Shown here: piece by piece, positions 5,417 through 29,302 of the stretch
How positions within the stretch are numbered: position 1 is the stretch's first letter
Layout: the number at the start of each line of letters is the position of its first letter
Assembly (NCBI GenBank): GCA_009788065.1
Contig: WQSF01000013.1
Location: 9,920 to 44,093 of the forward strand
Origin: Treponema sp.
GTDB lineage: Bacteria; Spirochaetota; Spirochaetia; Treponematales; Breznakiellaceae
DNA: 34,174 nt
Direction of reading: 5' to 3'
Translations under genes and position numbers: made by a program
The notes under the pieces: generated by a model
The model's input: only the letters and a program-made list of their open reading frames with translations
Database searches by the model: none
What the model was told of the DNA's origin: nothing

Positions 5417-6781
5417 TTAAAGACCATTAGCGTCGGCGATCAATGCATTCCAATTGTTGGAAACAGCTTCGACCAGTTGCGCCGGTTCGCCGTCGTGATG
5501 CCAGATTTCCCAGGCAATACCTCCGCGATTAAGTCCCGGAACATGCAGATGATATTTCCATTGCCATAATTTCTGATCGCGGATTAAAACCATGGTTTCA
5601 TCCACAGCTCTTCTATCCCTGAAATTCGGATACATACCTGATCGCCAGTCAGAATCAGCGGGCGTTACCCAAGACTGAACTGCCCATAAAATCGCGTCAA
5701 CCTGAGCGTCAGTATATCCGCGTGCGGGAATAACCATAACATTTTCTGAATTAAATATTACATAATTTTTTGATCTGGGGCCTTTTGGCGGAACTACCAT
5801 ACCCCAATCATCTCTCATTACACGCATATCGCCGGTTATGTATTGTTGATCTATGCGCATTGCTACTTTTGAATCTTGAAATTCGGGAATGTGCCAGTTC
5901 CATGCCACTCCTTCAGGTTTCGGTTTCATTACGCCTTCATCTCTTAATCTCATATAAAAACGAACCGCTTCTAAAAATTCAGGAGTGTTTGAAGAATTAT
6001 AAAGCATGCCGTTTTTATCTCTCATAACATAATTCGCTCCGTTACTTGAAATCAGAGCGTCAAGAATTTCTGTGGAAAGATCTGAAGGCATTGCGTATGT
6101 ATCCATTATACCGTCATTATTAATATCTCTCGTAAGTTTTTTCGCAATCTCAAGAAATTTATCCCATGTCCATGTGCCGGCTTTTTGAAGATCATAAGGT
6201 AAATCAGGATTCAACCCCGCTTCCCTGAACAATCTTTTGTTCCAGACCACAACAGCAGCTTGCGAACTTCCGCCGTATCCGTCAGTAAAAGCATAAGTTT
6301 TGCCGCTAAAAGTAAATGCTGTTGTAACATGCCTGTTCCATTCAACAGGGGTTGTAGAACTCCAGTTAATTACCTTTCGCGTACCCACAGGATACAAAAG
6401 ATTTTGGCGGTAAAGAGCCAATGCCCAATCTGCCTGCAAGCGGAAAACATTCGCAGCAGGTCTTCCTGCCATTATTGATGTAGAAGCAACCTGCGCCATT
6501 TCACCCCAACTGCCGACATTCTTATCCTGCATTTTAAAATTATATTCTTGCAAAAGCCTTTTGCGGTAATCAAGCGTTCTCTCTTCGGAATCAGTTCTTG
6601 CCTGAAAAACAGCAGGATCATAATTTGACCACCAGTTTCCAATGACAATATTCATTCCTCTGAGCGTATTTCTAACTGCGTTCGGCGCTTTGGGAACAAC
6701 TTGCTGCGCAAACACAGGCATTATATTCATTAGTAATAAGATAATTACAATATAAGAAATAATTGTTTTATTTTTTATCAT
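5417..6781 (-). CDS. Extracellular sugar-binding protein (ABC, CUT1 type), paralogue 2
   Basis: A 454-aa periplasmic solute-binding protein (SBP_bac_1-like family) that would deliver an oligosaccharide to a CUT1 permease pair. I chose the ATG at 6781: it starts a standard signal peptide (MIKNKT..., ending PVFAQ) and follows AAGGAT; the longer frame to 6880 would lie inside the GH130 gene. There is no lipobox cysteine. Recognisable blocks are DGYGGSSQAAVVVWNKRLF, AGTWTWDKFLEIAKKLT, NNDGIMDTYAMP (acidic, possibly Ca-binding) and the aromatic-rich C-terminal WQWKYHLHVPGLNRGG. It is very similar over its whole length to the protein at 7806-9200. It is the last gene of the operon, starting 1 bp after the GH130 stop. 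Confidence 0.92.
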   Translation of the reverse strand: MIKNKTIISYIVIILLLMNIMPVFAQQVVPKAPNAVRNTLRGMNIVIGNWWSNYDPAVFQARTDSEERTLDYRKRLLQEYNFKMQDKNVGSWGEMAQVASTSIMAGRPAANVFRLQADWALALYRQNLLYPVGTRKVINWSSTTPVEWNRHVTTAFTFSGKTYAFTDGYGGSSQAAVVVWNKRLFREAGLNPDLPYDLQKAGTWTWDKFLEIAKKLTRDINNDGIMDTYAMPSDLSTEILDALISSNGANYVMRDKNGMLYNSSNTPEFLEAVRFYMRLRDEGVMKPKPEGVAWNWHIPEFQDSKVAMRIDQQYITGDMRVMRDDWGMVVPPKGPRSKNYVIFNSENVMVIPARGYTDAQVDAILWAVQSWVTPADSDWRSGMYPNFRDRRAVDETMVLIRDQKLWQWKYHLHVPGLNRGGIAWEIWHHDGEPAQLVEAVSNNWNALIADANGL

Positions 6782-6782
6782 T

Positions 6783-7796
6783 TTATTTATCCTTATTTTT
6801 CTTAACCCAATTAACAATCTCGTCAACTTTTCCGAACACAAGACCTGTAACAGTATCCGCGCAGCCATAATAAATCGCAATTCTGTTTGTATCTTTATCT
6901 ACAAGCGCTGCGACAGGGAAAGTGACATTGGGAACATCACCTGCAAGTTCATACATTTCGCGCGGGTTAATGATATAGGGTTTTGGACGTGCGATAACTT
7001 TCCAGGGTTTATCAATGTCCATTAAAGCCGCGCTGAATGAATAAACAAAGCCGTTACAGCTAGTCAGCACTCCGTGGTAAAAAACAAGCCAGCCTTCGGT
7101 TGTTTCGATGGGACAGGGACCCGCGCCAATTTTCGTACTCTGCCAGCCGCCTGAAGGTGATATAACATGACGATGTTTTCCCCAATAAAGTAAATCCGGA
7201 CTTTCAGAGTAAACAATATCGCCGAAAGGCGTGTGTCCCGAATCGCTGGGACGGCTGTACATTGCATAGTTGTTTCCGATTTTTCGGGGGAAAAGCGCAC
7301 CGTTGCGGTTAAACGGCATTACAACATTTTCTAATTGATAAAATTTTTTAAAATCAAAGGTGTAGCCCAAGCCGAGGCACGGGCCGTGATAACCGTTACA
7401 CCACATTATATAATAACGGTCTTCTATAAAAATTACGCGGGGATCGTATTTATACTCGGAATCCGGCAAGTCAGGATCAGTTTTAATAAACTCAATCGGC
7501 TCATCCTCAATTACCCAGTTGATTCCGTCTTTACTGTGTCCCGCGTTAATATCCATGTGACGCGCAGTATCATCGCAGCGAAAAACGCCTGCAAAGCCGT
7601 CTTTAAACGGAACAACAGCGCTGTTAAAAATGCTGTTGCTCCGCAAAGTTAAATCCCTCGGGATTATCGGGTTTTTCGAAAACCGCCACATCGGCGTTTC
7701 CAAAGAAACGCGCTCCTTCTCAGGATTACTGTGTGACGGTCTGTCTTCCCATGGGATATTCGGCAGACTATATCCGTTAACAATGATACCGCTCAT
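6783..7796 (-). CDS. GH130 family glycoside phosphorylase (beta-mannoside type)
   Basis: GH130 enzymes cleave beta-linked mannosides with phosphate, releasing mannose 1-phosphate. No signal peptide is present, so it acts in the cytoplasm on imported sugar. Family blocks: NPIIPRD (about 43-49), [27 protein letters not shown] with a candidate general-acid Asp, [30 protein letters not shown], the phosphate-site-like [19 protein letters not shown], and [10 protein letters not shown] near the end. Length (337 aa) is normal. The ATG at 7796 is used; a TTG codon directly before it is not needed. It lies between two near-duplicate solute-binding genes, which suggests they bring in its substrate. Exact substrate (mannobiose, mannosylglucose or longer mannooligosaccharide) cannot be decided. 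Confidence 0.88.
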
Positions 7797-7805
7797 CAAA
7801 TTATT

Positions 7806-9200
7806 CTACAGTCCGTTAGCGTCGGCAATTAAAGCGTTCCAGTTATTGGAAACAGCTTCAATCAACTGTGCCGGCTCACCGTCATGGAACCAGATTTCCC
7901 AGGCGATACCGCCGCGGTTAAGTCCCGGAACATGAAGGTGATATTTCCATTGCCATAATTTCTGATCGCGAATTAGCGCTAATGTTTCGTCTACAGCTCT
8001 TCTGTCTCTGTAGTCGGGATATGCCGCAAGTCTCCAGTTGCTGTCAACAGGAGTTACCCATGTCTGGTATGCCCAAACAATAGCGTCAACCTGCGCGTCT
8101 GTGAATCCGCGGGCAGGAATTACTCTTACGTTTTCGTCGTTAAATACTACATAGTTCTTTGATCTTGGTCCCTTCGGAGGAAGAACCATTCCCCATTCGT
8201 CTCTCATGTTCCTAAGATCGTTTGTAGCAAGGTACTGCTGATCAATGCGCATAGCGACTTTACCGTCGTTGAATTCGGGGATGTGCCAGTTCCATGGAGT
8301 GGAATTGGTTGTACCGTCGTTGCCTACCGGTTTCGGTTTCATAACGCCTTCGTCTCTCAGTCTCATGTAGAACTGAACAGCTTCAATAAACGCAGGGGTG
8401 TTTGAAGCGTTTTCAAGCAAACCTGTTTTATCATTTTTTATAACATATGTCGCGCCGTTACCCGAAACGAGAGCGTCCAGAATTTCTGTTGAAAGGTCGG
8501 CGGGCATTGCATATGTATCCATTATACCGTCGTTGTTAATATCTCTTGTAAGTTTCTTGCAGATGTCAAGGAATGTATTCCATGTCCATGTTCCTGCTTT
8601 CTGAAGATCGTAAGGAAGGTTTGGATCAAGTCCGGCTTCTCTAAAGAGCCTCTTGTTAAAGAACACGCACGCGGCGTGGTTACTTCCGCCGTATCCTTCA
8701 GCAAATGCATAAGCCGCATCGCGTTCGCGCCCGGACTTTAATGTAAAGGCGGAACGTACAGATTGATTCCACTCAACAGGAGTCGGTGATGTCCAGTTTA
8801 CAGCTTTGCTTCTGCCTACAGGATACAGAAGGTTTTGGCGGAACAACGCAAGCGCCCAGTCCGGCTGTAATACGAAAATTGTCGCAGCGGGTCTTCCCGA
8901 CATAATTGAAGTAGCCGCGATTTGCGCCATTTCATTCCAGCTTGCAATATTCTTTTCCTGCATTTTGAAATTATACTGCGCTAAGAATCTTTTACGATAA
9001 TCCAACTGTCTTTCTTCATAATCGTTTCTTGGCTTGTGAGTAGCAGGATCGTAACTGCTCCACCAGTTACCGATAACAATGTCCATCCCTCTCAGTGTGT
9101 TCGAAATCGCACCCGATGCTTTGGGAACCGGTTGAGCGAACACAGAAACAACCATTGCCAGCATAAGAATACAAGCAATTAAAATCGTTTTCTTTGTCAT
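7806..9200 (-). CDS. Extracellular sugar-binding protein (ABC, CUT1 type), paralogue 1
   Basis: A 464-aa periplasmic solute-binding protein with a clear signal peptide (MTKKTILIACIL... ending VFAQP) and a strong GGAGG ribosome binding site. It shares nearly every block with the protein at 5417-6781: GMDIVIGNWWSSYDPA, AGTWTWNTFLDICKKLT, NNDGIMDTYAMPADLSTEI, and a near-identical C-terminal third. It differs by small insertions (SGRERDAA and GNDGTTNST). It follows the second permease pair after 97 nt containing a hairpin, and precedes GH130 by 9 nt. It is the likely main binding protein of the permeases at 9298-11233. Substrate is inferred to be a mannose-containing oligosaccharide. Confidence 0.93.
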   Translation of the reverse strand: MTKKTILIACILMLAMVVSVFAQPVPKASGAISNTLRGMDIVIGNWWSSYDPATHKPRNDYEERQLDYRKRFLAQYNFKMQEKNIASWNEMAQIAATSIMSGRPAATIFVLQPDWALALFRQNLLYPVGRSKAVNWTSPTPVEWNQSVRSAFTLKSGRERDAAYAFAEGYGGSNHAACVFFNKRLFREAGLDPNLPYDLQKAGTWTWNTFLDICKKLTRDINNDGIMDTYAMPADLSTEILDALVSGNGATYVIKNDKTGLLENASNTPAFIEAVQFYMRLRDEGVMKPKPVGNDGTTNSTPWNWHIPEFNDGKVAMRIDQQYLATNDLRNMRDEWGMVLPPKGPRSKNYVVFNDENVRVIPARGFTDAQVDAIVWAYQTWVTPVDSNWRLAAYPDYRDRRAVDETLALIRDQKLWQWKYHLHVPGLNRGGIAWEIWFHDGEPAQLIEAVSNNWNALIADANGL

Positions 9201-9275
9201 AGTTTCCTCCGAAATAAATTATTATCTCAAGCGTTACGCCGCTATACGGCATACGCATTGAAACCCCAGCAATAA

Positions 9276-9299
9276 AACCTGAATATTACCTTTCAGGTT
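9276..9299 (-). terminator. Intercistronic hairpin, possible attenuator
   Basis: On the minus strand AACCTGAA-N8-TTCAGGTT forms a perfect 8-bp stem followed by TTATT. It starts at the stop codon of the permease gene and lies upstream of the solute-binding gene. Such elements often protect mRNA ends or partly terminate, setting different levels for the binding protein and the permeases. The T tract is short. Confidence 0.45.
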
Positions 9300-10314
9300 A
9301 CATTTTAATACCAGTCTGACTGAGCGACTCAACAAACGCTTTTTGAGCGATTAAATACAGAATTATTAACGGCGCAAGACACATAAGCATACCTGTCGCG
9401 ATCATCGCCTGAACATAGCCGACAGGCGCAGTCGAAGCTACAGCCGCTCCTGTTATTGAGTTTGTCGCAGCCCACCACTGGCTGACTCTTTCCGCAATCG
9501 CGCCAAGACCCGTGGAAAGCATTCTGTAGTTGTTAAGGAATAATGAAGAGAAAAACGAATCTGTCCACTGCCATACAAAGGAAAATAGGAAACACGATGT
9601 AAGCATCGGGGTCGCGTCGGGAAGCATAATCCTGATAAATGTTTTAAATTTTCCGCATCCATCTACCCATGCAGCTTCTTCAAGCTCTTTCGGCATTCCT
9701 CTGAAATACTGCCTTAACATAAAAATATATAAACCGCTCTTGAGCCCCATGCCCGTAGCAGACAGCAGCCAGAAGCCAAAAACGCTGTTTAGCAGATTTA
9801 CAGGCTCTCCTGTTATCAAGCGGAATATGCCGAATATATCGAAGAAGTGGAAATTTAAATAAAGCGAAGCCATGATCGTCTGCGGCGGAACAACAATTAT
9901 AAGCATAACGCAGAAAAACCAAAAACCTTTTAACGGAAATTTATAACGCGCGAAACCATACGCCGCAAGGGTACAAGCGGCAATCTGCAGAACAGAACTC
10001 ATGGTTATAATAAAAAATGTTTCAAAAAGAGCAGGCCAATAATTTATCAACTGAGCGGCGATTCTGTAATTGCCGGTAGTAAAATTGCGCGGGATACTGA
10101 TAACAGTGCTGTCATATAAATCCTGTTCCGCCATAAAACTTACGCTTAATTTATCCAAAAGCGGCTGGATGATCAGAAAGCACATTCCAAAAAGAAGGAT
10201 CGTGCGGCAGACTTTAAACGTAATATCCATCGCCTTTTTTTTCTGGTGATAATTTCTGGAAATATTACCCCAATTCGCAGTTCGATCTTTGTCGGTATAA
10301 ATATCATCACTCAT
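9298..10314 (-). CDS. Carbohydrate ABC transporter permease, MalG type (pair B)
   Basis: An inner-membrane permease subunit of the CUT1 family, 338 aa with about six transmembrane segments. The cytoplasmic EAA loop that docks the ATPase is visible as EEAAWVDGCGKFKTFIRIMLP (about residues 217-237). The C terminus (LSQTGIKM) is typical of MalG-like subunits. Its start overlaps the end of the upstream permease by 8 nt (ATGAGTGA). Together with that gene it forms pair B, probably served by the solute-binding proteins downstream. Insertions in the periplasmic parts (for example ITGEPVNLLNSVFGFW) make it longer than typical MalG (about 280-300 aa). Confidence 0.93.
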   Translation of the reverse strand: MSDDIYTDKDRTANWGNISRNYHQKKKAMDITFKVCRTILLFGMCFLIIQPLLDKLSVSFMAEQDLYDSTVISIPRNFTTGNYRIAAQLINYWPALFETFFIITMSSVLQIAACTLAAYGFARYKFPLKGFWFFCVMLIIVVPPQTIMASLYLNFHFFDIFGIFRLITGEPVNLLNSVFGFWLLSATGMGLKSGLYIFMLRQYFRGMPKELEEAAWVDGCGKFKTFIRIMLPDATPMLTSCFLFSFVWQWTDSFFSSLFLNNYRMLSTGLGAIAERVSQWWAATNSITGAAVASTAPVGYVQAMIATGMLMCLAPLIILYLIAQKAFVESLSQTGIKM

Positions 10315-11233
10315 AGTAGTATACCCTCTTGGAAATTATTGCCATTGCAATTCCGATAATCGAAATTACAGCCAGAAAGTAAACCCATGCCATAGCGGTT
10401 CCAAAACTGAAATTTAACATCCTTAGCGTAGTTAAATTAATTTTAGCCATAACGCGGTTATCTGTTCTTATAAAGTAATCAACAACACTGTAAACAATGT
10501 TAACAAGGATTAAAGAGCTTACCATCGGGAAAGTTATTTTCCAGAAACATTCCCAAGCAGTCGCGCCTTCAATTTTTGCCGCTTCGAACATGCTTGGCGG
10601 AATTGTCTGAAGGGCGGAAAGGAAGATAATTATCTGGATACCGGATGCCATCGCTATATCATATATCTGATTGATGATACGGAAGATATAACCCATAAAA
10701 TCGCTTGCGGCGCCTTCCGCGACAAGAATATCTTCCAGCACCTTGGTAACAGAAGATTTCATTAAGTTACCTTCTTTGATAATGTCCGCCATACTGTTTA
10801 AAAGCGAATTATTAGTTTCAAGCCCGATCATTACGCCGGAAGAAAGAATAACAGGCAGAAAGAAAATCGCGCGCACAAAACCTCTTGCCTTAAATTCCTG
10901 ATTCAAAATAAGCGCGACAAACAAACTGAAAATAATAATCGCGGGAACTATTAATAACATTCTTCCGATTTCTTCAACAAGGAATCTATTAAATTCCGGG
11001 TCTACTCCGACAACACGGATTATATTTGCAAGACCGACGTAAGTCATGGAGAAACCCTGTTTCTCGGTGTCGATTCTTACATCACTAAATACCATTCTAA
11101 GAGATTCCGCGATGGGAAATAACATAAAAGCGATAAATCCGATAATGAATGGGAGCAGGAACAGATAACCTGTTATCGCATTCTTTCCTTCGAGCGTCAA
11201 TGATAATTTATTATCTTTTTTAATAAAATACAT
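10307..11233 (-). CDS. Carbohydrate ABC transporter permease, MalF type (pair B)
   Basis: A 308-aa CUT1 permease with about six transmembrane segments; the first is at residues 22-44. The EAA loop reads MFEAAKIEGATAWECFWKITFP (about residues 214-235). A GGGGGG ribosome binding site overlaps the end of the DUF5696 gene, and its ATG shares one base with that gene's TAA. A loop of about 70 residues between the middle segments (around the VLEDILVAEGA stretch) is longer than usual for the family. It pairs with the MalG-type subunit that overlaps its 3' end. No ATPase gene is nearby. Confidence 0.93.
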   Translation of the reverse strand: MYFIKKDNKLSLTLEGKNAITGYLFLLPFIIGFIAFMLFPIAESLRMVFSDVRIDTEKQGFSMTYVGLANIIRVVGVDPEFNRFLVEEIGRMLLIVPAIIIFSLFVALILNQEFKARGFVRAIFFLPVILSSGVMIGLETNNSLLNSMADIIKEGNLMKSSVTKVLEDILVAEGAASDFMGYIFRIINQIYDIAMASGIQIIIFLSALQTIPPSMFEAAKIEGATAWECFWKITFPMVSSLILVNIVYSVVDYFIRTDNRVMAKINLTTLRMLNFSFGTAMAWVYFLAVISIIGIAMAIISKRVYYYE

Positions 11234-13767
11234 TATTCCCCCCGCCTAACAATATAACTGTCTGCATTTATTATAATTCCGTTGTAGTTCCAGTCACCGT
11301 CACTCGCGTTTACAATAACTCTTGTTCCATCTTCATATACTGTAACTGTTACACCGTGCGACAATATCTGGTGATTAACAATATGCTGATTATAAAGATG
11401 CCCGAAATCTGCGTTGAATTTTCTGTACAGCATGTCGGCGTCTTCAACCCATTTACCGTATTCGTTGGCGTAGAACTGTCTGAATTTTGTTTCCTGCAAT
11501 TCGGCTGTTTCTTCCATCATAAAACTAAAATACAATCCGGCGCCGCTTTCAATCGTCTTTAGAAGATTCTTTGTGTAATCTTCGGCAAGATTGATGGCTC
11601 TTCCCGTAAACGGCACATAACCATGTAAAACAATCGGAAGGAATGGAACAGAATAATCCGTTATGCCGAAACTTTGATCGTCAATAATCATATCTGTAAT
11701 AATGGAAGCCCATGGTACAGAATAAACATAACCGGTATGAATAAGAATTCCGTTTCCGTTCTGCCTCATTTTTTCATACTGCTGCTGGCGAAGCTTCATA
11801 CTTTCTTCACGGCTTATGTGGCGTTTTTCGTGATAATCCCCTGAAAGTCTTGTTCCCATATTTCTAAACGCGATATTTTTCATTCCCAACTTTTCCGCTT
11901 TTGGAATAAAATCATTAATCATTTTAATCGTTGCGCCGGGACGCGCAAGGTAATTTAACTTACCCCATTGTGTGCGTTCTCCGAACCAGATAAAACTGTA
12001 TGGATAACGCTGAACACGTTCGCGGTTCACATAACGCGCGGCATCGCTGTAAATATTAAAGCCGCTGAACATTCCAACATCCCTCATGAAAATAAAATCG
12101 ACTTCGGGATAAATTTCAAAATTATTCTTTTTAGCGGCATCAATAATGTGGGTAAAATTTCTGCGGCTGCCGAGTTCTTTGATCAATTTTACTTTTGTAG
12201 GTACGGTATGATCGACACTGCGGTTAAACCAGCCGTTTAATTTAACATGAACATTCTTCCATCCAAAACCCGCAAAATTATTAATCATCTCTTCGGTTTC
12301 TTTGTAGGAAGTAAGTTTTAGCGGCAGATCGAAAGGGAGTCCCATACGGTGCTGTGTTTTATTAACAGCGCCGATAACTTCCACCGCTACAGGAGCGCCG
12401 GTTTGCGCGCGTCTGTCTTTAAGGACAGGATAATTTTTAAAAAGCCATGAACGATACTCATTCGCCATTCCCATGTATCCGGGTTCGGCGCACGGCGTAT
12501 AACGTACAGTTATACTTTCACCAGCGGGAAGAGTCTGCTCGTAAAGGAAAACCGCGCGCTGGTTGCGTTCGGCAATATCCATTAACGCGCCGTGAACCAT
12601 GGAAAAGATCGGGTATACCCTGTTCCATGAATTGTTTCTGCCCGATACATCAGCACGTACGCTTGCATATGCGGAACCTTCTTCTATTATGCATAACAAA
12701 GCTGAGTTGTTCTTTTGAATTCCAAATGCGGGAAACAGCGCCTTATTATCGCTGATTACTGCGTCACGGCGAATCGCTTCATCCCAGCCGTACATATTAA
12801 TACTGTAAGAAAGCTGGTTTTGTTTTCCATTATTAAAATTAATTATAGCTCCGCTTCCATCCGGCACAAGCATGTATCCAGAATCATTCATGTTGCCGGA
12901 ACCCATGAACGGCAGCAGAGCCAACTGCGTAATCGGGTAAGCGGGGCGGTATCCGATTTTATCAAACGGAACATTTACTACAAGAGATTTACCGTCAAGA
13001 ATATAACGAATAGTTACGCTGAACGCGGGTCTTACAGATTCGCCGGTTAGCTCGTAACGCATGGAATCTTCGACATAATCTTCCATGGTGTAGCCGGCAA
13101 GTTTAAAACTTTCCTCCGCGATTTCCTTCATGTAATCGGGAGAGCCTGTGCGTAAAACCCACAATTTAATTTCTCTGAGTTCAGGAAAATCGTTTAAAAG
13201 CTGAGTTCTGTCGTCGTTCATACGCAGATTGTTTATATCGTAAAGACGGTAAGTAGACTCAACAATTCCGCGTTCTTCGTATTCCATTTGATCCAGATAG
13301 ATATTCATTCGATCTTCCGACATCGCGGGAGGAATACGGAAAGCGCGCGCAAGATCGCCGACTGTGTAACGCACTTCAAGAGCACCGTCCACAACTTCGT
13401 AAGTATAAGCGCCGCGCTGCACGCTGTAAGCTCCAGACTGAAGCGTCATTCCGATGCCCGCTGTATCGGCGTAATCTACCGAGAACTGCGATTCCATTAA
13501 CTGCCTTGTAACAACATCCGCCAATCTGTCGCTTTCAGGATTAGGAGGATTTGAACGCCACTGTATGCCTGTCGCTTTTTCTGTAAGAATAATTTCCGCG
13601 GTAGTGCATAAAAAATTTAAACGCAGATATTCATTTTCCAAAACAACATCATTACCTTCGATAAATTCATATATCATTACCGGTCTTGGCCTTGCAGTTC
13701 TTGTATTACAGGAAACGACCAGGAAAATTGTAACGAACAATAATAGTATAAAAGCGGATTTTTTCAC
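11233..13767 (-). CDS. DUF5696-family lipoprotein, possible glycoside-active enzyme
   Basis: An 844-aa envelope lipoprotein: hydrophobic leader then lipobox LVVSC with lipidation Cys20. It matches what I know of DUF5696 proteins, which occur beside sugar ABC transporters in Firmicutes and have no proven function. The N-terminal half (about 35-420) looks like a beta-rich supersandwich (YLRLNF, TGIQWRSN, FDKIGYRPAYPIT, LVPDGSG). The second half (about 450-760) has the alternating pattern of a TIM barrel, including VHVKLNGWF, FEIYPEVDFIFMRDVGMF and GILIHTGYVYS, with several acidic candidates. A hydrolase role is inference from that layout. Start is GTG, preceded by GGGGGTCAG. It sits between the YIP1 gene and permease pair B. 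Confidence 0.82.
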   Translation of the reverse strand: MKKSAFILLLFVTIFLVVSCNTRTARPRPVMIYEFIEGNDVVLENEYLRLNFLCTTAEIILTEKATGIQWRSNPPNPESDRLADVVTRQLMESQFSVDYADTAGIGMTLQSGAYSVQRGAYTYEVVDGALEVRYTVGDLARAFRIPPAMSEDRMNIYLDQMEYEERGIVESTYRLYDINNLRMNDDRTQLLNDFPELREIKLWVLRTGSPDYMKEIAEESFKLAGYTMEDYVEDSMRYELTGESVRPAFSVTIRYILDGKSLVVNVPFDKIGYRPAYPITQLALLPFMGSGNMNDSGYMLVPDGSGAIINFNNGKQNQLSYSINMYGWDEAIRRDAVISDNKALFPAFGIQKNNSALLCIIEEGSAYASVRADVSGRNNSWNRVYPIFSMVHGALMDIAERNQRAVFLYEQTLPAGESITVRYTPCAEPGYMGMANEYRSWLFKNYPVLKDRRAQTGAPVAVEVIGAVNKTQHRMGLPFDLPLKLTSYKETEEMINNFAGFGWKNVHVKLNGWFNRSVDHTVPTKVKLIKELGSRRNFTHIIDAAKKNNFEIYPEVDFIFMRDVGMFSGFNIYSDAARYVNRERVQRYPYSFIWFGERTQWGKLNYLARPGATIKMINDFIPKAEKLGMKNIAFRNMGTRLSGDYHEKRHISREESMKLRQQQYEKMRQNGNGILIHTGYVYSVPWASIITDMIIDDQSFGITDYSVPFLPIVLHGYVPFTGRAINLAEDYTKNLLKTIESGAGLYFSFMMEETAELQETKFRQFYANEYGKWVEDADMLYRKFNADFGHLYNQHIVNHQILSHGVTVTVYEDGTRVIVNASDGDWNYNGIIINADSYIVRRGE

Positions 13768-13775
13768 CTGACCCC

Positions 13776-14432: not shown

Positions 14433-15877
14433 GCTTCCAAAATCTCCTTGACAGTTTTAATGGAGAACCTGATTAAAATCGGAAGGAAAATGGCAAGCCC
14501 TATAATTAAAAGTATCCACCATAAATTTTCTTCCATCCACTGTTTACGGTACAACTGGAAAGCTTTCCCGTATCCCTCGCGGTAATGTTTTAATTTGTAG
14601 TATTTCATCGCTTTTTGAAACTCACTTTGCCGAAGCGCCGCGCGCCCGATGCCTATGTAAGCCAAATCGTAGTTTCCGTTCATTTTTAAAACTTCTTCCC
14701 AAACAAGCGCGGATGACTCATAACGCCCGGCTTTGTATTCGTCTAACGCTTCGTTAATCATGGCGCCATATCCAGTAAGATCAAAACGGGTTAGCGCTCC
14801 GGCTCTTGAATCAAGAGCGTAGAGAGACTCACCCATTCTGTCGAGCGCGACAGGCTGAAGGAAAGAACCCTCGCGGTTGCCGACTCCGCCGAACGCGTAT
14901 AAAAGATTCCCCTGGAAATCGTACATAAAAATGCGTCCGCGCGTTCTGTCGAAACATGCATAAGAGTCATTGTCAAAAGCAACCGCGTCGATAAAACGCG
15001 AACGGCCGGAAATTCCTCCGGCGTTGCCGACAACCAAATCGCCGACAGGATCTTCGTAACCGTTACGGATTAAAATGTCCTGCCCCATCGCGTTAAGCCT
15101 GCGAACGGGAGCGGTCTGACCCGATGAATTCGTAACATAAATAAATCCGTCTTTATCCATCGCGACATTGCTGTATTCAGTCGGAATAAAAAGATCCATT
15201 CGCTCTTTCTGCGCCTGCGTAGAAAGAAGCTTCCACACATAATCAATCGGATTAACATGAACTTTATTAGCGCCCATGTATCCTGAAAATTCCCACCGGT
15301 TATCAAATTCCATCAAACCCTTGTTAATATTACGAGCCTGAATAAACACGCGGTTCGCGAAATCAACAATTACTTTAACAGGTATAAATTCAGTTAAATC
15401 GCCAAGACTTTCATCTACAGGTTTTAAAATTTCGTGAATAAAGTTCCAGTTGTTGTCGAGTATCAACAAGCGCTGATTGTTGGTATCGGCAATATACAGA
15501 TTCCCGTCCCTGTTTTCAAAAATGTCCATAGGATAATTGAAAGCGGATGAAACTCCGTTAATCATTACAGAATTAACTATTCTGACTACGGAATGTTCAC
15601 CGTTTTTATTAACTTCAATTTTTATAATCCGGTTATTGCCGGAGTCGCAGACATATATACGATTATCACGGATATATAGTCCCTGAGGATCTCTGAAGTG
15701 ATCTATATCCAATGATGTTCCAAGAATATAAGCGCCAACCCTGTACGCGTCAGGAGACGCAACCTGTTCAAACCAGAAGTCGTAATTATATGTGTAATTT
15801 GTCGGCGAAGCGAAAACGGGAGCCAATGCAAACGAGCATACGATTAATAAAAACACAATACGAAAAATATTTCTCAT
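14429..15877 (-). CDS. Secreted NHL-repeat/TPR protein with C-terminal membrane anchor
   Basis: A 482-aa protein with a cleavable signal peptide (ending APVFAS) and NHL-type beta-propeller blades: FRDPQGLYIRDNRIYVCDSG, FNYPMDIFENRDGNLYIADT, YSNVAMDKDGFIYVTNSSG, FIDAVAFDNDSYACFDRTRG and FLQPVALDRMGESLYALDSR. Two TPR-like helix pairs follow (about 370-440: EALDEYKAGRYESSALVWEE, AYIGIGRAALRQSEFQKAMK). A transmembrane helix near residues 451-472 (WWILLIIGLAIFLPILI) anchors it with a short basic cytoplasmic tail. The propeller therefore faces the periplasm. It overlaps the upstream permease and the downstream YIP1 gene by ATGA, indicating a coupled unit. Whether it binds sugar or protein is unknown. 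Confidence 0.88.
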   Translation of the reverse strand: MRNIFRIVFLLIVCSFALAPVFASPTNYTYNYDFWFEQVASPDAYRVGAYILGTSLDIDHFRDPQGLYIRDNRIYVCDSGNNRIIKIEVNKNGEHSVVRIVNSVMINGVSSAFNYPMDIFENRDGNLYIADTNNQRLLILDNNWNFIHEILKPVDESLGDLTEFIPVKVIVDFANRVFIQARNINKGLMEFDNRWEFSGYMGANKVHVNPIDYVWKLLSTQAQKERMDLFIPTEYSNVAMDKDGFIYVTNSSGQTAPVRRLNAMGQDILIRNGYEDPVGDLVVGNAGGISGRSRFIDAVAFDNDSYACFDRTRGRIFMYDFQGNLLYAFGGVGNREGSFLQPVALDRMGESLYALDSRAGALTRFDLTGYGAMINEALDEYKAGRYESSALVWEEVLKMNGNYDLAYIGIGRAALRQSEFQKAMKYYKLKHYREGYGKAFQLYRKQWMEENLWWILLIIGLAIFLPILIRFSIKTVKEILEA

Positions 15878-16746
15878 TCTTTTATCCCAGAACTTGCCAT
15901 CGTCTGCAGAACATTGCTCTGCGCGAAAATAAACATTACAAGCGGAACGATCATTACAAAGAGCGTTACCGCAGCCGCGACGCCTGTACGCGCAATACCT
16001 GCCGCGGCAATTTGACCAAGCGCGTAAGGCAGCGTTTTTAACTGTTCAGAATAAATGAAAACCGAGGCTCTCGCGTTCCACAGGTTTTGTACAGAGAAGA
16101 TCATAACGGTAAGCCACGCCGGTTTAATCATCGGCAGAATTATATATATGAAGATTCTGAATTCTTTAGCGCCGTCAACCTTTGCGGCTTCCAGCAGAGT
16201 ATCCGGTATCGTGTCTATAAACTGCCTTAGCAGAAAGAATCCCATAGGCATCGCAAAAGCCGGAATAATTACAGACAAGTAAGTATCAACCCAGCCAAGC
16301 CCCGCCATTACAAGGTAGTTGGGAATCGCGGTTACATAAGTCGAGAACATAAGAGTGATAATTACGCCCTGAAAGAAAATCTTTGAACCGGGGAATCTGT
16401 ATTTGGAAACAACAAACGCGCCCATCGAAGCTACGATGATAAGACCGGCGGTTCCGATAACAGTAATAAACACTGTATTAAAAATGTAACGCGAAAACGT
16501 AACCCACGATTTGCTCATAAGGATAAATAAATCCTGAAAATTATTTAATGTGGGACGCTGAACAAAAAGTTTCGGCGGAAACAGAAAGATTTCGTTTAAA
16601 GGTTTGAATGCGTTATTGATCGCGAAAACAAGCGGATAGACAAAGAACAACCCGAATATGGTAAGAATTACAACTATAAACGCGTCGCCGCCGTAAGAAC
16701 GGTTAAGTCTTTTTCCGCCGACTAATTTCTTTATTTTCTTGCTCAT
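15874..16746 (-). CDS. Carbohydrate ABC transporter permease, MalG type (pair A)
   Basis: A 290-aa CUT1 permease with six transmembrane segments and EAA loop LLEAAKVDGAKEFRIFIYIILP (about residues 183-204). It has the C-terminal ASSGIKE typical of MalG-like subunits. An AGAGGT ribosome binding site precedes the ATG. It follows its MalF-type partner by 9 nt and overlaps the NHL gene by 4 nt. It is distinct in sequence from the MalG-type subunit at 9298-10314, so the operon holds two separate permease pairs. Confidence 0.94.
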   Translation of the reverse strand: MSKKIKKLVGGKRLNRSYGGDAFIVVILTIFGLFFVYPLVFAINNAFKPLNEIFLFPPKLFVQRPTLNNFQDLFILMSKSWVTFSRYIFNTVFITVIGTAGLIIVASMGAFVVSKYRFPGSKIFFQGVIITLMFSTYVTAIPNYLVMAGLGWVDTYLSVIIPAFAMPMGFFLLRQFIDTIPDTLLEAAKVDGAKEFRIFIYIILPMIKPAWLTVMIFSVQNLWNARASVFIYSEQLKTLPYALGQIAAAGIARTGVAAAVTLFVMIVPLVMFIFAQSNVLQTMASSGIKE

Positions 16747-16755
16747 ATCTACCTC

Positions 16756-17688
16756 TTATGTTCCTACTCGGCTTAACAATTTCTGAATAACTGCGTTAAG
16801 CACAATCATTGTAAAGAACAATATTGTAGCTATCGCGGAAGCATAACCCATTTCAAAGCGCGTAGAACCGTAATCGACAAGATGGTTTACAACCGTATGA
16901 ACCGCGTAATCCGTACTTGGAAAACCGGCAAGTTGTACTGTAACATCGGCGACCCCAAACGCCTGAGTAATTGCCATAACAGCGCCGAACATTAACATCC
17001 CCTTCATGTTAGGTAATGTGATGTACCAAAGTTCCTGCCAGCGGTTAGAAATACCGTCCACAAGTCCTGCTTCGTAAAGCGACGGATCTATCGTAGAAAG
17101 ACCGGCGAGGAAGGCGAGGAAGCCCGCGCCTAAACTCATCCACAAAATGACTATAAGAATTACAGGCATCATGTACTTTGGATCTGTAAGCCACAGAACA
17201 GGCGAATCGAGAATGCCAAGGTTCATTAAAATCGCGTTTACATAACCGTAAGCGTCGCCTGAAAAAATCAACAGCCAGATAAGGAAGACAGAACCGGAAA
17301 TCGACGGTGCGTAGAAAACCAATGTAACAAAGGCGCGAATGTAGCGCGGCAGCTCATTAATAAACCACGCAAATAAAAACGCCATTACATAGCCAATCGG
17401 ACCTGTAATCGCCGCCATAATAAATGTGTTTTTCATTGATATTAGAAAAACATCGTCGGCTAACAGAAGGTTGATATAATTGCGAAGTCCGATAAATCTT
17501 GGCGGTTCAAGAACATTGAAATATGTAAAACTTAAAAAAAGCGATATGATAACAGGAGCGACGTAGAAAAGAAGAAAGACAATCGCGTAAGGCGCGAGAA
17601 AAAGATAACAGACCCTGTTCCTGTAAATATCTTTCGCTCTGTATTCGTCCTTCTCCTTTATTTTTTCAAAGTACCGTTTAAGACTCAT
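16756..17688 (-). CDS. Carbohydrate ABC transporter permease, MalF type (pair A)
   Basis: A 310-aa CUT1 permease; six transmembrane segments begin at about residue 28 after a charged cytoplasmic N terminus. The EAA loop reads LYEAGLVDGISNRWQELWYI (about residues 204-223), with the second Ala replaced by Gly. A GGGGGAAAG ribosome binding site precedes the ATG. It starts 8 nt after the large solute-binding protein, which is its probable partner. Confidence 0.94.
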   Translation of the reverse strand: MSLKRYFEKIKEKDEYRAKDIYRNRVCYLFLAPYAIVFLLFYVAPVIISLFLSFTYFNVLEPPRFIGLRNYINLLLADDVFLISMKNTFIMAAITGPIGYVMAFLFAWFINELPRYIRAFVTLVFYAPSISGSVFLIWLLIFSGDAYGYVNAILMNLGILDSPVLWLTDPKYMMPVILIVILWMSLGAGFLAFLAGLSTIDPSLYEAGLVDGISNRWQELWYITLPNMKGMLMFGAVMAITQAFGVADVTVQLAGFPSTDYAVHTVVNHLVDYGSTRFEMGYASAIATILFFTMIVLNAVIQKLLSRVGT

Positions 17689-17696
17689 CTTTCCCC

Positions 17697-20636
17697 CTAT
17701 TCCAGACCAAATTCTTTGCGCTTTTTAATCAACTCATCGTTAATTGTAAGAGTATAATCCAACAAGGTTTCCCGTGTATCCTGACCTTCGTTTAAAATAC
17801 GGCGCGCCGCGTTTGTAATATGACGGCTGACAAAGTAACCGCCCGGTACTTCCGGTATGCCGACTGTCCACTGGCGCTGTTCGTCAAGAACCGACATTTG
17901 CTCTGAACCCCACGAAAGCCGTTTAAACGCGGCGTAATTCGCTGTCGGGTAACGCGCGGCGGCTCCCATGATACTTTCAAGTTCGCGGCCGAATCTGAGC
18001 TGAGTATCCGCGCTGATCCACCACTTCAAAAATTCCCATGCCAAATCCGGGCGTTCCGCATCAGAGAAAATCATCGAAGCCAGCGTACCGACAGAAACGG
18101 AGCGGTTTATACTGCCGTCCTCTCTGGGCAAGCCCGGCATTCTAGCAAAGCCCCAGAGGCCGCGAAGTTCCGGCGCAAAGACTTCAAGCGTATTAAAGTT
18201 TGAATAATCGGCAAACGCAAGCGGCATTTCTCCGGTACGGAAGCGGTTAACAAAATCGTAAACAACAGGTGTTTTGTAATGCGTAAAGAATTTTGTGTAA
18301 ACATCAAAAGCCTCGATTGCGATCTCGCTGTCCAGAAGGGTGCGGGAGCCGTTTTCGTTGTACATTCGCCCGTCGCGCTGGAATAAATGCGCAAGGAAGT
18401 TAGAGAAGTCGATAGCGGTTTGTACGTTAGTTGCAACAGAAGGAATACCTACGTTCATGTTGTTTTTTTGAATGACGGGAAGAATATTAATAAGATCATC
18501 CCATGTGTCAGGAATGTTAATGTTCAATTCATGGAAAATATCTTTTCTGTAGAACATGACATGAAAGTATTGTGTTTCAGGCAGTCCGTAAACGCCGCCT
18601 TCAAAAGTAAACGGAGTAATAACGCTGTGGTGAAGATCCTTCGCCGCTTCTTTAAAATCCGGGAACTGAGAAAGATCAACGACCGCTTTTCTAATGGCGT
18701 AGTTAACCGGATCTCCCTGCGGCAGAGTAAGCGCCATATCAGGTCCCGTACCGGCGACAACCGCAGGCATAACCGCGTCAGCGGCGACAAGCTTAACGTT
18801 TACCCTGATTCCTGTCAGCGGAGTAAAGGTATCGTCTATCATCGCTTTTAATATTGTACTTTGATCGCGTCCCGCAAGAATCCATACATTAATTACATTT
18901 ACGCCTTTGGCGTGAAAGTCGCCGAGATTGTTGTAATCGACAAAGAACGAAGCAAAGAACGAACGAATCTCATGCGAAGCGGACACTAAAAAGTTTTCTC
19001 TTAACTGGGGAAGTCTTGCGTCCGCGGCGCTGACAATAACAAAGTCAACATCGAGCTGAGACTGCGAAAGAGCTAATAAGCTATCACCTAACGAAGAAAT
19101 ATTCTGTTTAAAGTTGACTAACATTCTTGGAATTTTATCCGGGCGTCTTACAAAAAGTTCAAGCTGGCGCGCAAGTGTTAAAGTCGCCGCGGCCTGCGCG
19201 CTGCGTTCGCCCGAATAGCGCGTTAGATCATCAACAAGTTTATAAAGGATTTTACTCTCTAAAGCCATAGCTTCGATAACTTCAGGATAAATATAATCAA
19301 CGCGGTAATCGCGGTAAATATCAGGTTCGGGACCTGTTAAAACAAGTATCTTACGGTAAATCGTGTTCAAGCGGAAAACACTTTCTTCCATGACGTTTAA
19401 CATTTCACCCATGCCGCCGAGTGTCGCCTGAACACGCAGAGTGTGGGAACCGGCTTCCAGCGGGAAAAAGTAATCGCCGTTTTTACCGCCGAGAGTGCTT
19501 AAAACCCATTTGTTATTGTAAATAAAAGGTACGGACGCAAGCTCCTGAACAGGAATTTCTCCGTTAATCATAAAAGTGCGGTTTGAAACAAAACCGCGGT
19601 TGTAATTTTGCCTGCTTTTTACAGAAAAACGGTACATACCGTTTTCCGGTACATCGAATTCCCATTCGATCCACTGTCCGGCAACGCGCCAGCTCTGACC
19701 GCCGATCATGTTAAGCCTGATTCTAGCGACGCTCGGAGGCTCGGTCGCCCCGGAAGAACGATCATAAATCGGATACAATGAAGGATCGGATCTGCGAACA
19801 GCTCTTTCACCTTGTATTTTTAATAAATAATTGTTACGCGCATTTTGAAACTGGCTCAAATCTGTTTTGGCAATATATTCGCTGTAACTCGGAGTTTCTG
19901 ACGGAGCCCTCAGTACGATGGAGCGGATCGCGACAGGTTCATTCACGCCTGTAAGTCTGATGGTATTCGCGCCCTGCCTGAAATAAAAAGCATACGGGTC
20001 TGTGATATAACCAAGCGCGTCTCTGAACCACGCGCTTTCCCATCGCGGTTTTTCAACCTGCGACGGACGTATCTCGTTTCCCTGATTATCGAAGCGGCTG
20101 CTTCCGCCGTCGCTCCAAACACGCTGAAATGAAATCCTGTCGGCGCCAAGGAACGGAATCTCGCCGTTAATCGAAAGCTCGCGTTCTATGGCGATACCTC
20201 TCGATGAAAGAGGAAAATAATCCATTTTTATAAAGTAAAGCCCCGCACGGTCGACATTAACGGTATATTCGACGTAACTGCGTTCTTCGGTTCGTAAAAC
20301 ATTAATATTTTCTAAAAAGCTTTCAACAGAAACACCTACGGACGCCCACTCAGACATAATATTTTGAACGTTATCGATGGAAACACCCTGAGCGGAAGTC
20401 CACGAAAAAAGGTTGATTGAAATGTCCCTCTGTCCTGCCGGCGCGTCCGCATGGCGTTCCATGTAGCGGGAATATGTATTCGTTCTCCCGGTGCTTGCGC
20501 CGCTGAGATCGAAACCGGCGTATTTTGTTGAAAAATCCGATTCTTGCCTGCCGGCGACAACGAAGATTAACACCACGGCAACAAAAATCACCGCAACAAT
20601 AATCAAAAACCTTAGTTTTGAAGTTCTTTCATCCAT
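17697..20636 (-). CDS. Large membrane-anchored solute-binding protein with two beta-sandwich regions
   Basis: A 979-aa protein, more than twice the size of ordinary sugar-binding proteins. Residues 9-28 are a hydrophobic uncleaved-looking anchor. Regions at about 120-245 and 315-430 look like carbohydrate-binding beta-sandwiches and share the phrase INGEIPF/INGEIPV followed by a Trp-containing strand, suggesting internal duplication. A helical segment (about 440-570) leads to a C-terminal SBP domain (about 578-979) with GPDMALTLPQGDPVNYAI, GGVYGLPETQYFHVMFYRKD and a late aromatic WEFLKWWIS. It precedes permease pair A by 8 nt. Similar long proteins are known beside DUF5696/YIP1 genes in Firmicutes; ligand unknown. 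Confidence 0.9.
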   Translation of the reverse strand: MDERTSKLRFLIIVAVIFVAVVLIFVVAGRQESDFSTKYAGFDLSGASTGRTNTYSRYMERHADAPAGQRDISINLFSWTSAQGVSIDNVQNIMSEWASVGVSVESFLENINVLRTEERSYVEYTVNVDRAGLYFIKMDYFPLSSRGIAIERELSINGEIPFLGADRISFQRVWSDGGSSRFDNQGNEIRPSQVEKPRWESAWFRDALGYITDPYAFYFRQGANTIRLTGVNEPVAIRSIVLRAPSETPSYSEYIAKTDLSQFQNARNNYLLKIQGERAVRRSDPSLYPIYDRSSGATEPPSVARIRLNMIGGQSWRVAGQWIEWEFDVPENGMYRFSVKSRQNYNRGFVSNRTFMINGEIPVQELASVPFIYNNKWVLSTLGGKNGDYFFPLEAGSHTLRVQATLGGMGEMLNVMEESVFRLNTIYRKILVLTGPEPDIYRDYRVDYIYPEVIEAMALESKILYKLVDDLTRYSGERSAQAAATLTLARQLELFVRRPDKIPRMLVNFKQNISSLGDSLLALSQSQLDVDFVIVSAADARLPQLRENFLVSASHEIRSFFASFFVDYNNLGDFHAKGVNVINVWILAGRDQSTILKAMIDDTFTPLTGIRVNVKLVAADAVMPAVVAGTGPDMALTLPQGDPVNYAIRKAVVDLSQFPDFKEAAKDLHHSVITPFTFEGGVYGLPETQYFHVMFYRKDIFHELNINIPDTWDDLINILPVIQKNNMNVGIPSVATNVQTAIDFSNFLAHLFQRDGRMYNENGSRTLLDSEIAIEAFDVYTKFFTHYKTPVVYDFVNRFRTGEMPLAFADYSNFNTLEVFAPELRGLWGFARMPGLPREDGSINRSVSVGTLASMIFSDAERPDLAWEFLKWWISADTQLRFGRELESIMGAAARYPTANYAAFKRLSWGSEQMSVLDEQRQWTVGIPEVPGGYFVSRHITNAARRILNEGQDTRETLLDYTLTINDELIKKRKEFGLE

Positions 20637-20654
20637 ATTCCTGACAGCCTTTCT

Positions 20655-20834
20655 TTAAATTTGGTCTATTTTTACAGCATTTATCATCATTCTGATAAGA
20701 GCTTCATTGTCCTGTGAATTTGGCTTGCTTGCACTGCGATCGAACAGACAGTTAGAAGGAGAATCGCAAACGAGATAAAAATAATTCTCAGCCTTCACTT
20801 TTATCTCCTTGCTAACTGCGTCTGCGAGCGTTTT
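20655..20834 (-). pseudogene. In-frame open stretch after the CIA30-like stop; small ORF or cut-off tail
   Basis: The 59 codons directly after the TAA of the upstream CIA30-like gene stay open in the same frame (reading KTLADAVSKEIKVKAENYFY and on), ending in TAA at 20655. Two readings fit. It could be a C-terminal extension cut off by the TAA. Or it could be a separate 47-aa protein starting at GTG 20798, because AAGGAG stands 6 nt before that codon. It contains two Cys (VCDSPSNC) and no signal peptide or TM segment. An open stretch of this length has a few percent probability by chance. I do not recognise a family. Confidence 0.4.
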
Positions 20835-21440
20835 TTAATTATGTACTTTAAAATTCCAGAATTTAATTTCGAAGGGATTCACATCGCCGGCTTTTCTCCA
20901 GCTTTCGTGAGTCTGCCATTCAATACCGGTTACAAGTTCAGGACTCTTTTTTACGGGTTGCGCCCAGCTAGGCTGCATAAAATAGGCAATGGGAACTTCT
21001 ATAAAGACCGGTTCTCCCGGTTCAGTACTAAAACGATATTCCAAATAGCCGAAATCTTTAACATTACTTGTTTTAAATTTAACAGAGTACGCTTTTCCAT
21101 CGCCAAGAACCCAGAATGAAATAGCTTTTGCGGATTTATAAAGAGCCAGGGTCGCTTCGTCCGGATCGAGGGTCCAACCCGCAAAGCCGTACTGGAATTT
21201 AGTAGTAACATTTCCTGAAATATAATAAACGGTTACATTTTCGCCGTTAATCGTTTCTTCGGCTTTTCTGATCGTAGCGGTAGATGTTCCATTATCGGAT
21301 GTATCGTTATATGCTGACCATTCACCTGTCGCAAGAACAGGAACCGGCACAGCGACGGCTGCTGCTCTCTTTCTCGGCGCAGCATAAACTGTCATCGAAA
21401 TCATTAAAGCGACAGCCATAAATAATAAAATCTTTTTCAT
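20835..21440 (-). CDS. Secreted CIA30/CBM-like protein
   Basis: A 201-aa periplasmic or secreted protein. The signal peptide (MKKILLFMAVALMISMTVYA) is followed by a short Ala/Val/Pro linker, then one beta-sandwich domain resembling the CIA30/CBM11 galactose-binding fold: WSAYNDTSDNGTSTATI, YGFAGWTLDP, ISFWVLGDGKAYSVKFKT, a Pro-rich FMQPSWAQP and a closing INPFEI-like strand (NPFEIKFWNFKV). It has no catalytic motif, so carbohydrate binding is the likely role (inference). GGGGGA precedes the ATG. It is the first gene after the operon promoter, placing a small binding protein at the head of the transport operon. Confidence 0.8.
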   Translation of the reverse strand: MKKILLFMAVALMISMTVYAAPRKRAAAVAVPVPVLATGEWSAYNDTSDNGTSTATIRKAEETINGENVTVYYISGNVTTKFQYGFAGWTLDPDEATLALYKSAKAISFWVLGDGKAYSVKFKTSNVKDFGYLEYRFSTEPGEPVFIEVPIAYFMQPSWAQPVKKSPELVTGIEWQTHESWRKAGDVNPFEIKFWNFKVHN

Positions 21441-21521: not shown

Positions 21522-21550
21522 ATAATACCCTTATTATTTATTACAGTCAA
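21522..21550 (-). promoter_or_regulatory. Promoter of the carbohydrate operon
   Basis: On the minus strand TTGACT (21550-21545), a 17-nt spacer and TATTAT (21527-21522) give a near-consensus promoter. The -35 overlaps the aroA stop codon. Predicted start is about 21515, leaving a leader of roughly 75 nt before the CIA30-like gene. Confidence 0.65.
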
Positions 21551-27689: not shown

Positions 27690-27713
27690 GTCCAACTCCT
27701 AAATCTATTAAAA

Positions 27714-29237: not shown

Positions 29238-29285
29238 GAAATCCCTCTGAGTAGAGTATCTTGAGTTTTAAGCAAAAAAAATACC

Positions 29286-29302
29286 CGGCTGCAAAGCAGC
29301 CG
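29286..29302 (-). terminator. Attenuator between chvE and gguA
   Basis: On the minus strand CGGCTGC, loop TTT, GCAGCCG, then GGTA and eight T, 17 nt after the chvE stop. A terminator here would let most transcripts end after the binding protein, giving it excess over ATPase and permease. Confidence 0.75.

Follow-up and report, generated by a model that had tools for sequence, protein, structure and literature searches.

The DNA analysed here, referred to below as the window, comprises 34,174 nucleotides of a Treponema sp. genome (region C13:9920-44093 of a 2.14 Mb assembly in 98 contigs, 70% complete) and carries a carbohydrate-uptake operon at positions 5417-21440. Comparison of this cluster with its relatives in other genomes suggests that it is probably one co-inherited oligosaccharide import module served by a shared ATPase. 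Its eight core genes encode a giant membrane-anchored solute-binding protein (gSBP), two pairs of CUT1-type permeases (MalF1-MalG1 and MalF2-MalG2) and, between the pairs, an NHL beta-propeller protein, a Yip1-family membrane protein and a DUF5696 protein. Since the block also turns up in distant bacteria in the company of other enzymes, it has the look of a single standard uptake unit and not of two neighbouring transporters. The nearest named records, the Treponema sp. metagenome-assembled genomes WQSP01 and WQSW01, are presumably termite-gut genomes.

The ORF (open reading frame) map of the window fills this interval with 12 minus-strand ORFs, in agreement with the 12 co-directional genes of the first-pass annotation, whose overall observation on the cluster is confirmed and whose interpretation is supported in part. 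The families that it named (NHL, YIP1, DUF5696 and GH130) all have Pfam support, and its "CBM-like" protein belongs to CIA30, with a weak match to CBM_11. The features, from high to low coordinates, are as follows.

20835..21440, minus strand: CIA30-family secreted protein, accessory (CIA30 E 1.2e-11; transmembrane-like signal at residues 4-22).
20670..20747, minus strand: C-terminal remnant of a GH5 gene (tblastn, 26 aa, 61.5% identity to the GH5 of locus L023, E 4e-7).
17697..20636, minus strand: gSBP, 979 aa, with an N-terminal transmembrane anchor, a CBM35-like stretch in its N-half and a C-terminal solute-binding domain.
16756..17688, minus strand: MalF1, permease of pair 1 (BPD_transp_1 E 1.6e-12).
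15874..16746, minus strand: MalG1, permease of pair 1 (BPD_transp_1 E 5.1e-12).
14429..15877, minus strand: NHL beta-propeller protein with a TPR-like stretch, a signal-like N-terminus and a C-terminal transmembrane segment (NHL E 1.6e-13).
13776..14432, minus strand: Yip1-family membrane protein (Yip1 E 2.4e-9; 5 transmembrane-like segments).
11233..13767, minus strand: DUF5696 lipoprotein, a probable GH129/DagB-like TIM-barrel relative lacking the GH129 catalytic pair (PF18952, 593 bits).
10307..11233, minus strand: MalF2, permease of pair 2 (EAA loop; below the Pfam cut-off).
9298..10314, minus strand: MalG2, permease of pair 2 (BPD_transp_1 E 1.6e-11).
9214..9274, minus strand: RNA hairpin before SBP2, kept at MalG2-SBP2 junctions of the same genus.
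7806..9200, minus strand: SBP2, soluble periplasmic solute-binding protein (SBP_bac_1 E 2.9e-10).
6783..7799, minus strand: GH130 phosphorylase, putatively of the mannooligosaccharide-phosphorylase type (PF04041 E 5.3e-67).
5417..6781, minus strand: SBP3, tandem paralogue of SBP2 (SBP_bac_1 E 1.6e-11).

An overlap of the SBP3 and GH130 genes, as previously annotated, is not supported; the true start of the gene at 5417 is most likely the ATG at 6781, and SBP3 thus follows the GH130 gene (stop at 6783). The CIA30 gene stands outside the conserved core, with matches upstream in some same-genus loci only. Promoter and terminator scans were merely mildly above shuffles and were not used as support.

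The module is recognised mainly by its gene order. All other DUF5696 genes over the Pfam cut-off were collected from two draws, one of 59 genomes (the window's own genome and close relatives) and one of 392 genomes across the phylum, the own genome being included in both. These yielded 46 Spirochaetota loci, and two plasmid hits, in Butyrivibrio fibrisolvens and Paenibacillus cellulosilyticus, brought the set to 48 loci besides the window, in which core genes were assigned with profiles built from orthologues. Forty of the 48 have the full order gSBP-MalF1-MalG1-NHL-YIP1-DUF5696-MalF2-MalG2, and the other eight (L028, L031, L041, L043, L044, L045, L048 and L087) are all cut by a contig end. 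Intergenic gaps within the core are mostly below 20 bases or are overlaps. The order is kept in the divergent copies L046 and L047 despite 20-44% identity to the window's proteins, and the comparison with Firmicutes DUF5696 neighbourhoods that the first-pass annotation had proposed found it in both Bacillota loci as well. An SBP2-class protein accompanies the core in 41/48 loci. As for the gSBP, near full-length matches to its N-half occur in the same 21 genomes of the 392-genome draw as DUF5696 (own included), and partial weak matches (E 1e-11 to 7e-17) in 3 further ones. The idea of a cluster unique to one species was rejected, DUF5696 being matched in 24 of 59 genomes (E <=1e-3, own included; 22 over the cut-off) and in 21 of 392 in the phylum draw. 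The GH130 gene was likewise rejected as a core member: it is found in 19/48 loci, all of the window's genus, and is lacking in that genus's divergent L046 and L047. Two loci have local peculiarities, namely an opposite-strand ORF between NHL and YIP1 in L096, and in L037 (genome G030) a MalG1 broken up into one ORF of 144 aa and another of 210 aa by a frameshift or an assembly error.

The core genes also co-vary. Pairwise distances were compared over 34 loci and the window, loci without a given gene and the near-duplicate L081 being dropped. Correlations between the permease pairs (MalF1-MalF2 0.965, MalF1-MalG2 0.946, MalG1-MalF2 0.924, MalG1-MalG2 0.910) are about as strong as those within them (0.943 and 0.977), and for NHL and DUF5696 the coefficients with the rest of the core are 0.92-0.98. 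No unrelated-gene control was included in these figures, so shared species history contributes to them, an objection that is answered in part by two loci with consistent neighbours: in genome G360, which holds two clusters, the second (L095) is nearest to L097 from another family in all eight genes, and L030 is nearest to L038 in all eight. Together with the gene order, the co-varying distances bear out the earlier claim that the parts of the uptake operon belong together.

The first-pass annotation had reported two CUT1 permease pairs with EAA loops in all four proteins, and loop conservation over 44-48 rows bears this out. Misplaced rows, which were other permeases from cut loci (5, 4, 1 and 2 rows), were left out of the counts; no such row entered the distance test. 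MalF1 keeps E, A, D and G in 44/44 rows, MalG1 keeps E in 43/45 and D and G in 45/45, MalF2 keeps E in 48/48, A in 45/48 and G in 46/48, and MalG2 keeps E, A, D and G in 47/47. Pfam supports BPD_transp_1 for the permeases, with MalF2 below the cut-off (18.9 vs 26.4 bits); the latter is UgpA-like by NCBIfam (E 5.1e-11, far under the model's cut-off). This divergence of MalF2 in Pfam terms is what might suggest that one pair has become a non-transporting sensor of substrate status. Such a role is highly improbable, given that EAA loops are kept in both pairs, neither of which looks dead, and that the locus maps, in which part of the flanking ORFs were identified, hold no other constant neighbour gene. 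The sequence elements of a CUT1 importer are found, namely EAA-loop permease pairs, a family-1/8 solute-binding protein and, encoded outside the cluster, a UgpC-type ATPase that would serve these permeases.

That no MalK/MsmK-type ATPase lies in the cluster had been noted before, and a domain search of the window confirmed that the operon lacks one of MalK type. ABC_tran is matched in the window solely by the two halves of one protein (27714-29237) beside a CUT2-type permease and binding protein, and a dedicated ATPase just outside the operon was rejected, this sole ABC ATPase being of CUT2 type. It is part of a CUT2-type sugar transporter near the operon (26493-30444, minus strand), which consists of a Peripla_BP_4 protein, the two-domain ATPase and a BPD_transp_2 permease. 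A MalK-like gene on contig C19 was also rejected as partner because it adjoins a PotD-like binding protein and permeases. The search for an orphan msmK-like ATPase proposed earlier did succeed in the own genome, where a UgpC-subfamily gene at C51:11519-12667 scores 491 bits against a cut-off of 432 and carries OB_MalK and TOBE_2. It has no permease beside it, and the only BPD_transp_1 permease found on that contig adjoins another ATPase. When 42 candidates were scored per genome, exactly one UgpC-type gene over the cut-off was present in 28 of 34 genomes (own included), while three had weaker matches only and three had none at E <=1e-100.

The fetched stretches around the loci, about 5 to 20 kb each, were searched with UgpC seeds at E <=1e-5, and no MalK-type ATPase was found in those of the 46 Spirochaetota loci or in that of Butyrivibrio. 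Shorter ATPases of 250-266 aa lie outside the core in eight Spirochaetota loci, with an SBP_bac_3 protein close to the one in L080. The Paenibacillus cluster has one UgpC gene, directly upstream of gSBP, and here, then, one ATPase gene accompanies two permease pairs. Shared MsmX/MsmK ATPases are established in the available sections of two reports (PMC7658222; PMC8579813). The missing local ATPase is therefore ordinary, given the lone UgpC-type gene of this genome and the documented sharing, and its absence does not deserve the emphasis given to it at first.

The closest published locus is the XDL of Caldicellulosiruptor (Anaerocellum) bescii, Athe_0174-0185, which is described in the accessible part of its report as an operon xloEFG-X-GH129-axoFGE-xyn... 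with two CUT1 transporters (PMC8579813). Its order SBP-permease-permease-X-GH129-permease-permease-SBP is that of the window, matched by name only; it has no dedicated ATPase, a shared MsmK being thought to serve; and the GH129 label agrees with the DUF5696 profile result described below (PMC8579813; PMC12285236). The operon is upregulated on xylan and Avicel and was assigned to the XynR/AraR regulons (PMC8579813), its operator was included in binding tests with XynR, and 11 genomes are reported to contain the locus (PMC12285236). Gene deletions have been made in this organism (PMC8579813; PMC12838199). It differs in carrying xylan enzymes instead of GH130/GH5 and in belonging to a firmicute instead of a spirochaete (PMC8579813; PMC12285236). 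Since this operon is the same part for part by name, the module is not unseen, and the earlier term "uncharacterised" needs qualifying as far as the excerpted description goes, a xylan-induced operon sharing the order by name (PMC8579813). Single-pair CUT1 importers that use MsmX/MsmK resemble the window in their CUT1 permeases, solute-binding protein and UgpC-subfamily ATPase encoded elsewhere, whereas the window has two pairs, an anchored gSBP, and NHL-Yip1 and a GH129-like protein between the pairs (PMC7658222; PMC8579813, in the portions available). Among the literature matches listed, there was no description of the module as a fixed cross-phylum unit, of an NHL-Yip1 fusion or of an altered GH129 site, and no ABC-importer architecture with four permease subunits.

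Several points weigh against a single module. The 48 loci cannot be counted as independent: the search weighted to the window's genus contributed 26 of them, L080 and L081 are near-identical, L044 and L048 are two halves from the same genome, and two plasmids alone stand for the Bacillota. The nearest neighbours of L034 and L089 vary by gene, among close relatives. With regard to the ATPase, six of the 34 genomes have no UgpC gene over the cut-off, the lone standing of that gene was examined in the own genome only, and the proposed link would rest on family and on the lack of alternatives in a 70%-complete assembly. In the consulted sections on C. bescii, the rise of XDL genes is about 10-100-fold for those that are proximal and 4-9-fold for those that are distal, the authors take the XDL as two transporters (PMC8579813), and a later paper assigns linear-xylan transport to XynUVW (PMC12285236). 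SBP2 tracks the other genes less tightly (r 0.84-0.93), and less so with pair 1 (0.84-0.87) than with pair 2 (0.92-0.93).

The last of these points also speaks for two independent CUT1 importers of one polysaccharide, for example for long and short oligosaccharides, which would be adjacent for the sake of co-regulation and of which only one would be served by the helper proteins. Each permease pair is adjoined by its own kind of solute-binding protein, and the accessible text on C. bescii describes two CUT1 transporters in one regulated locus (PMC8579813). Co-regulation alone, however, accounts neither for the three non-transport genes that separate the pairs in all 40 complete loci nor for a gene order that is retained when identity falls to 20-44%, and no near full-length gSBP N-half occurs without DUF5696 in the 392-genome draw. 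Two independent importers are accordingly regarded as a rather doubtful explanation, and a single module with a shared ATPase as the preferred one.

Three proteins of the operon (gSBP, SBP2 and SBP3) have SBP_bac_1/8 Pfam matches over the cut-off, as many binding proteins as had been counted before. SBP2 and SBP3 are 73% identical over 467 columns and, as tandem paralogues, reduce that count to two kinds. In gSBP the solute-binding domain is confined to the C-terminal part (SBP_bac_1 at residues 595-879, E 3.8e-21), and a transmembrane-like segment lies at 10-28. Its profile matches include 5ysb (E 6.6e-27) and, at residues 298-397, the CITase chain 5x7g (E 2.1e-9), in which we take the matched part to be the CBM35 region. 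At E <=0.001 SBP2 has a single PDB relative, the arabino-oligosaccharide-binding protein 6rjy (E 1.4e-11). The hairpin GGTTTCAA...TTGAGATAA lies about 24 bases ahead of the SBP2 start and recurs at this position in 18 of the 22 MalG2-SBP2 junctions of the genus, counting the window; L025, L028, L029 and L045 do not match the pattern. Because the pattern used to select the rows already prescribes the outer stem, the inner pairs alone are informative, and here 97.0% of cells are paired, with 8 double-change cells (compensatory changes). The covariation score is 0.137 against 0.070 (sd 0.014) and is reached by 0/500 shuffles, while the counts of pairs and of types are reached by 59/500 and 113/500. 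The hairpin matched no family in an Rfam search and is possibly a processing or stability element.

The NHL protein contains a TPR_16 match (E 4.2e-6, under its cut-off) and transmembrane-like segments at 4-22 and 455-473, and its neighbour is a Yip1 family member by Pfam (37.7 bits, cut-off 28.6). In 7 of 48 loci (L046, L047, L079, L095, L097, L098 and L099) the two are fused into one protein. Pfam Yip1 exceeds its cut-off in six of the seven fusions, with none reported for L095 at E <=0.001, and a YIP1 profile built without fused proteins matches the C-terminus of all seven. These fusions make it most likely that the propeller and the Yip1 membrane domain act as one unit. A precedent is found in Bacillus, where, in the part of the report available, the Yip1-family protein YknW modulates assembly of the YknXYZ ABC transporter; YknWXYZ is thus similar in having a Yip1 protein as assembly partner, and different in being an efflux pump with a MacB-like permease, whereas an importer with CUT1 permeases is concerned here (PMC4887032).

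The DUF5696 protein of the window has the lipobox VVSC20; a lipobox-like motif occurs in 17 of 47 DUF5696 ORFs, and most of those without it carry an N-terminal transmembrane-like stretch. A literature search found no paper naming this family. A profile of 24 DUF5696 sequences matches the 3,6-anhydro-D-galactosidase DagB (5opq) at E 2.8e-11 and the GH129 enzyme NagBb (5wzn) at E 5.7e-4. The DagB match is collinear in three pieces, N-terminal, barrel and C-terminal (0.00044, 0.03 and 63, the third not significant alone), and hhalign against five GH129 sequences (L102-L106) gives 97.4% locally over 309 columns and 99.6% globally over 593 columns. DUF5696 is therefore a probable remote relative of the GH129/DagB-type TIM barrels, set apart from NagBb and GH129 by 17% identity in hhalign and by the loss of the catalytic pair. 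The acid/base of NagBb is Glu478; the catalytic Asp was mapped through NagBb Asp435, taken as the catalytic one of the two Asp of the GH129 motif. On this mapping the catalytic positions fall on N636 and H677 of the window's protein. Across 48 DUF5696 sequences, 19 have N, 14 have D, 6 have S and 5 have T at position 636; at position 677 there are 27 with N, 6 with H and none with E.

A plain GH129 was rejected, no Pfam GH129 being among the families listed at E <=1 for the 24 members, and the GH129 mechanism is unlikely, since Glu is never found at 677 and Asp stands at 636 in 14 of 48. In DagB, which is built of a beta-sandwich, a TIM barrel and an Ig-like domain at the C-terminus, Asp486 is the counterpart of NagBb Asp435; the enzyme is active although it has retained only one of the two NagBb catalytic residues, as stated in the passages available (PMC5698469). 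Other chemistry in DUF5696 is possible for this reason, and the protein might belong to a new GH129-like family of active glycosidases and trim oligosaccharides in the periplasm before import. The profile kinship to two active enzymes, the near-invariant D644 (45/48) and D704 (43/48) as alternative catalytic acids, and the GH129 label given by the C. bescii authors to the gene at the same place (in the accessible portion of PMC8579813) would fit with this. The missing acid/base, the Asn of the window at the Asp position and the absent Pfam match argue against it, and we consider such an activity unlikely.

In the import module, as we picture it, the anchored gSBP would use its CBM-like half to capture oligosaccharides that are longer or branched and would feed pair 1, soluble SBP2 and SBP3 would feed pair 2, and one shared ATPase would power both pairs. 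NHL-Yip1 may hold the parts together, in the manner of YknW, which modulates YknXYZ assembly, and DUF5696 may bind or present the glycan without cleaving it by the GH129 mechanism, while plug-in enzymes would determine the substrate. A further step, which is no more than tentative, is that the eight core gene products may form one membrane supercomplex, with two CUT1 importers on an NHL-Yip1 scaffold, topped by gSBP and the altered GH129-like subunit. If it exists, such an assembly would grip large or branched glycans in two places and coordinate their import.

The enzymes beside the core point to the likely substrate. The closest structures to the GH130 protein are Uhgb_MP (4udg, E 1.1e-143), the beta-1,4-mannooligosaccharide phosphorylase 5ayd (E 3.7e-133) and TM1225 (1vkd), far ahead of other GH130 chains, and these nearest characterised relatives suggest a mannooligosaccharide phosphorylase; NCBIfam GH130 models match below cut-off only. 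Loci of the window's genus commonly have a GH5 gene ahead of gSBP: that of L023, the only one tested with Pfam, has a C-terminus that could be recognised by eye in 12 of 14 upstream ORFs, 13 of these 14 belonging to the genus and one to another. The closest structures to the L023 GH5 are cellulases, endoglucanases and a xyloglucanase, not a mannanase. At 20640-20800 (minus strand), between CIA30 and gSBP, the window shows an internal loss of this gene, which leaves the C-terminal remnant and, by eye, a remnant of the signal peptide, and the locus has no secreted endo-mannanase. Elsewhere the own genome has four GH5 genes; a second GH130 and a GH26 match were not found in this 70%-complete assembly.

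Among 20 flanking proteins of relatives tested for family, L025 has downstream an acetylesterase-type gene (closest structures sialic-acid-type acetylesterases), and L030 and L038 have GH3 downstream. Other lineages carry GH38 (L047), GH43 (Butyrivibrio), GH3 (L098 and L099), alpha-galactosidase (L097), PNGase F (L096) and GDSL (L095) in their flanks, and non-glycan genes include an argininosuccinate lyase (L080) and a tRNA synthetase (L082). The PNGase F-like gene of L096 and the GH38 alpha-mannosidase gene of L047, both beside divergent copies, hint at N-glycan uptake by the module. For this species, beta-1,4-manno- or glucomanno-oligosaccharides are the best guess as substrate, other beta-glucans being less probable; if imported, manno- or glucomanno-oligosaccharides would be phosphorolysed by the GH130 enzyme. 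The beta-mannoside pathway proposed by the first-pass annotation is hence plausible from the proximity to Uhgb_MP and 5ayd, and is at most the version of this genus, as the enzymes of other lineages differ and the lost GH5 is not mannanase-like. A known counterpart is the mannan-utilisation locus MULL of Roseburia intestinalis (RiMnBP/RiMPP1/RiMPP2), which resembles the window in CUT1 oligosaccharide uptake followed by GH130 phosphorolysis and resembles related loci in the esterase-type gene and GH3, but which, in the sections consulted, has one permease pair and a surface GH26 mannanase, in contrast to the two pairs, GH5 remnant and lack of a GH26 match here (PMC6385246).

Other genes of the window include aroA (21547-22932, minus strand), in which an in-frame Cys/Pro-rich stretch, PLCPPCSPCTSAPP, at 22600-22670 looks by eye like an inserted repeat. 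The phenylalanyl-tRNA synthetase beta chain (30627-32405, plus strand) matches the archaeal-type NCBIfam model (476.6 bits, cut-off 282.65), with the bacterial model under its cut-off, and two GGDEF diguanylate cyclase genes stand side by side at 2147-4002 (plus strand).

The recurring module suggests that, in some bacteria, the uptake of complex glycans involves more than the textbook set of a solute-binding protein, two permeases and an ATPase. DUF5696 gains a probable fold family, GH129-like, together with a context, and Yip1 and NHL proteins become tied to ABC import. Because the enzymes are swapped around a constant core, the module may be used to find glycan-uptake loci and to predict their substrates.

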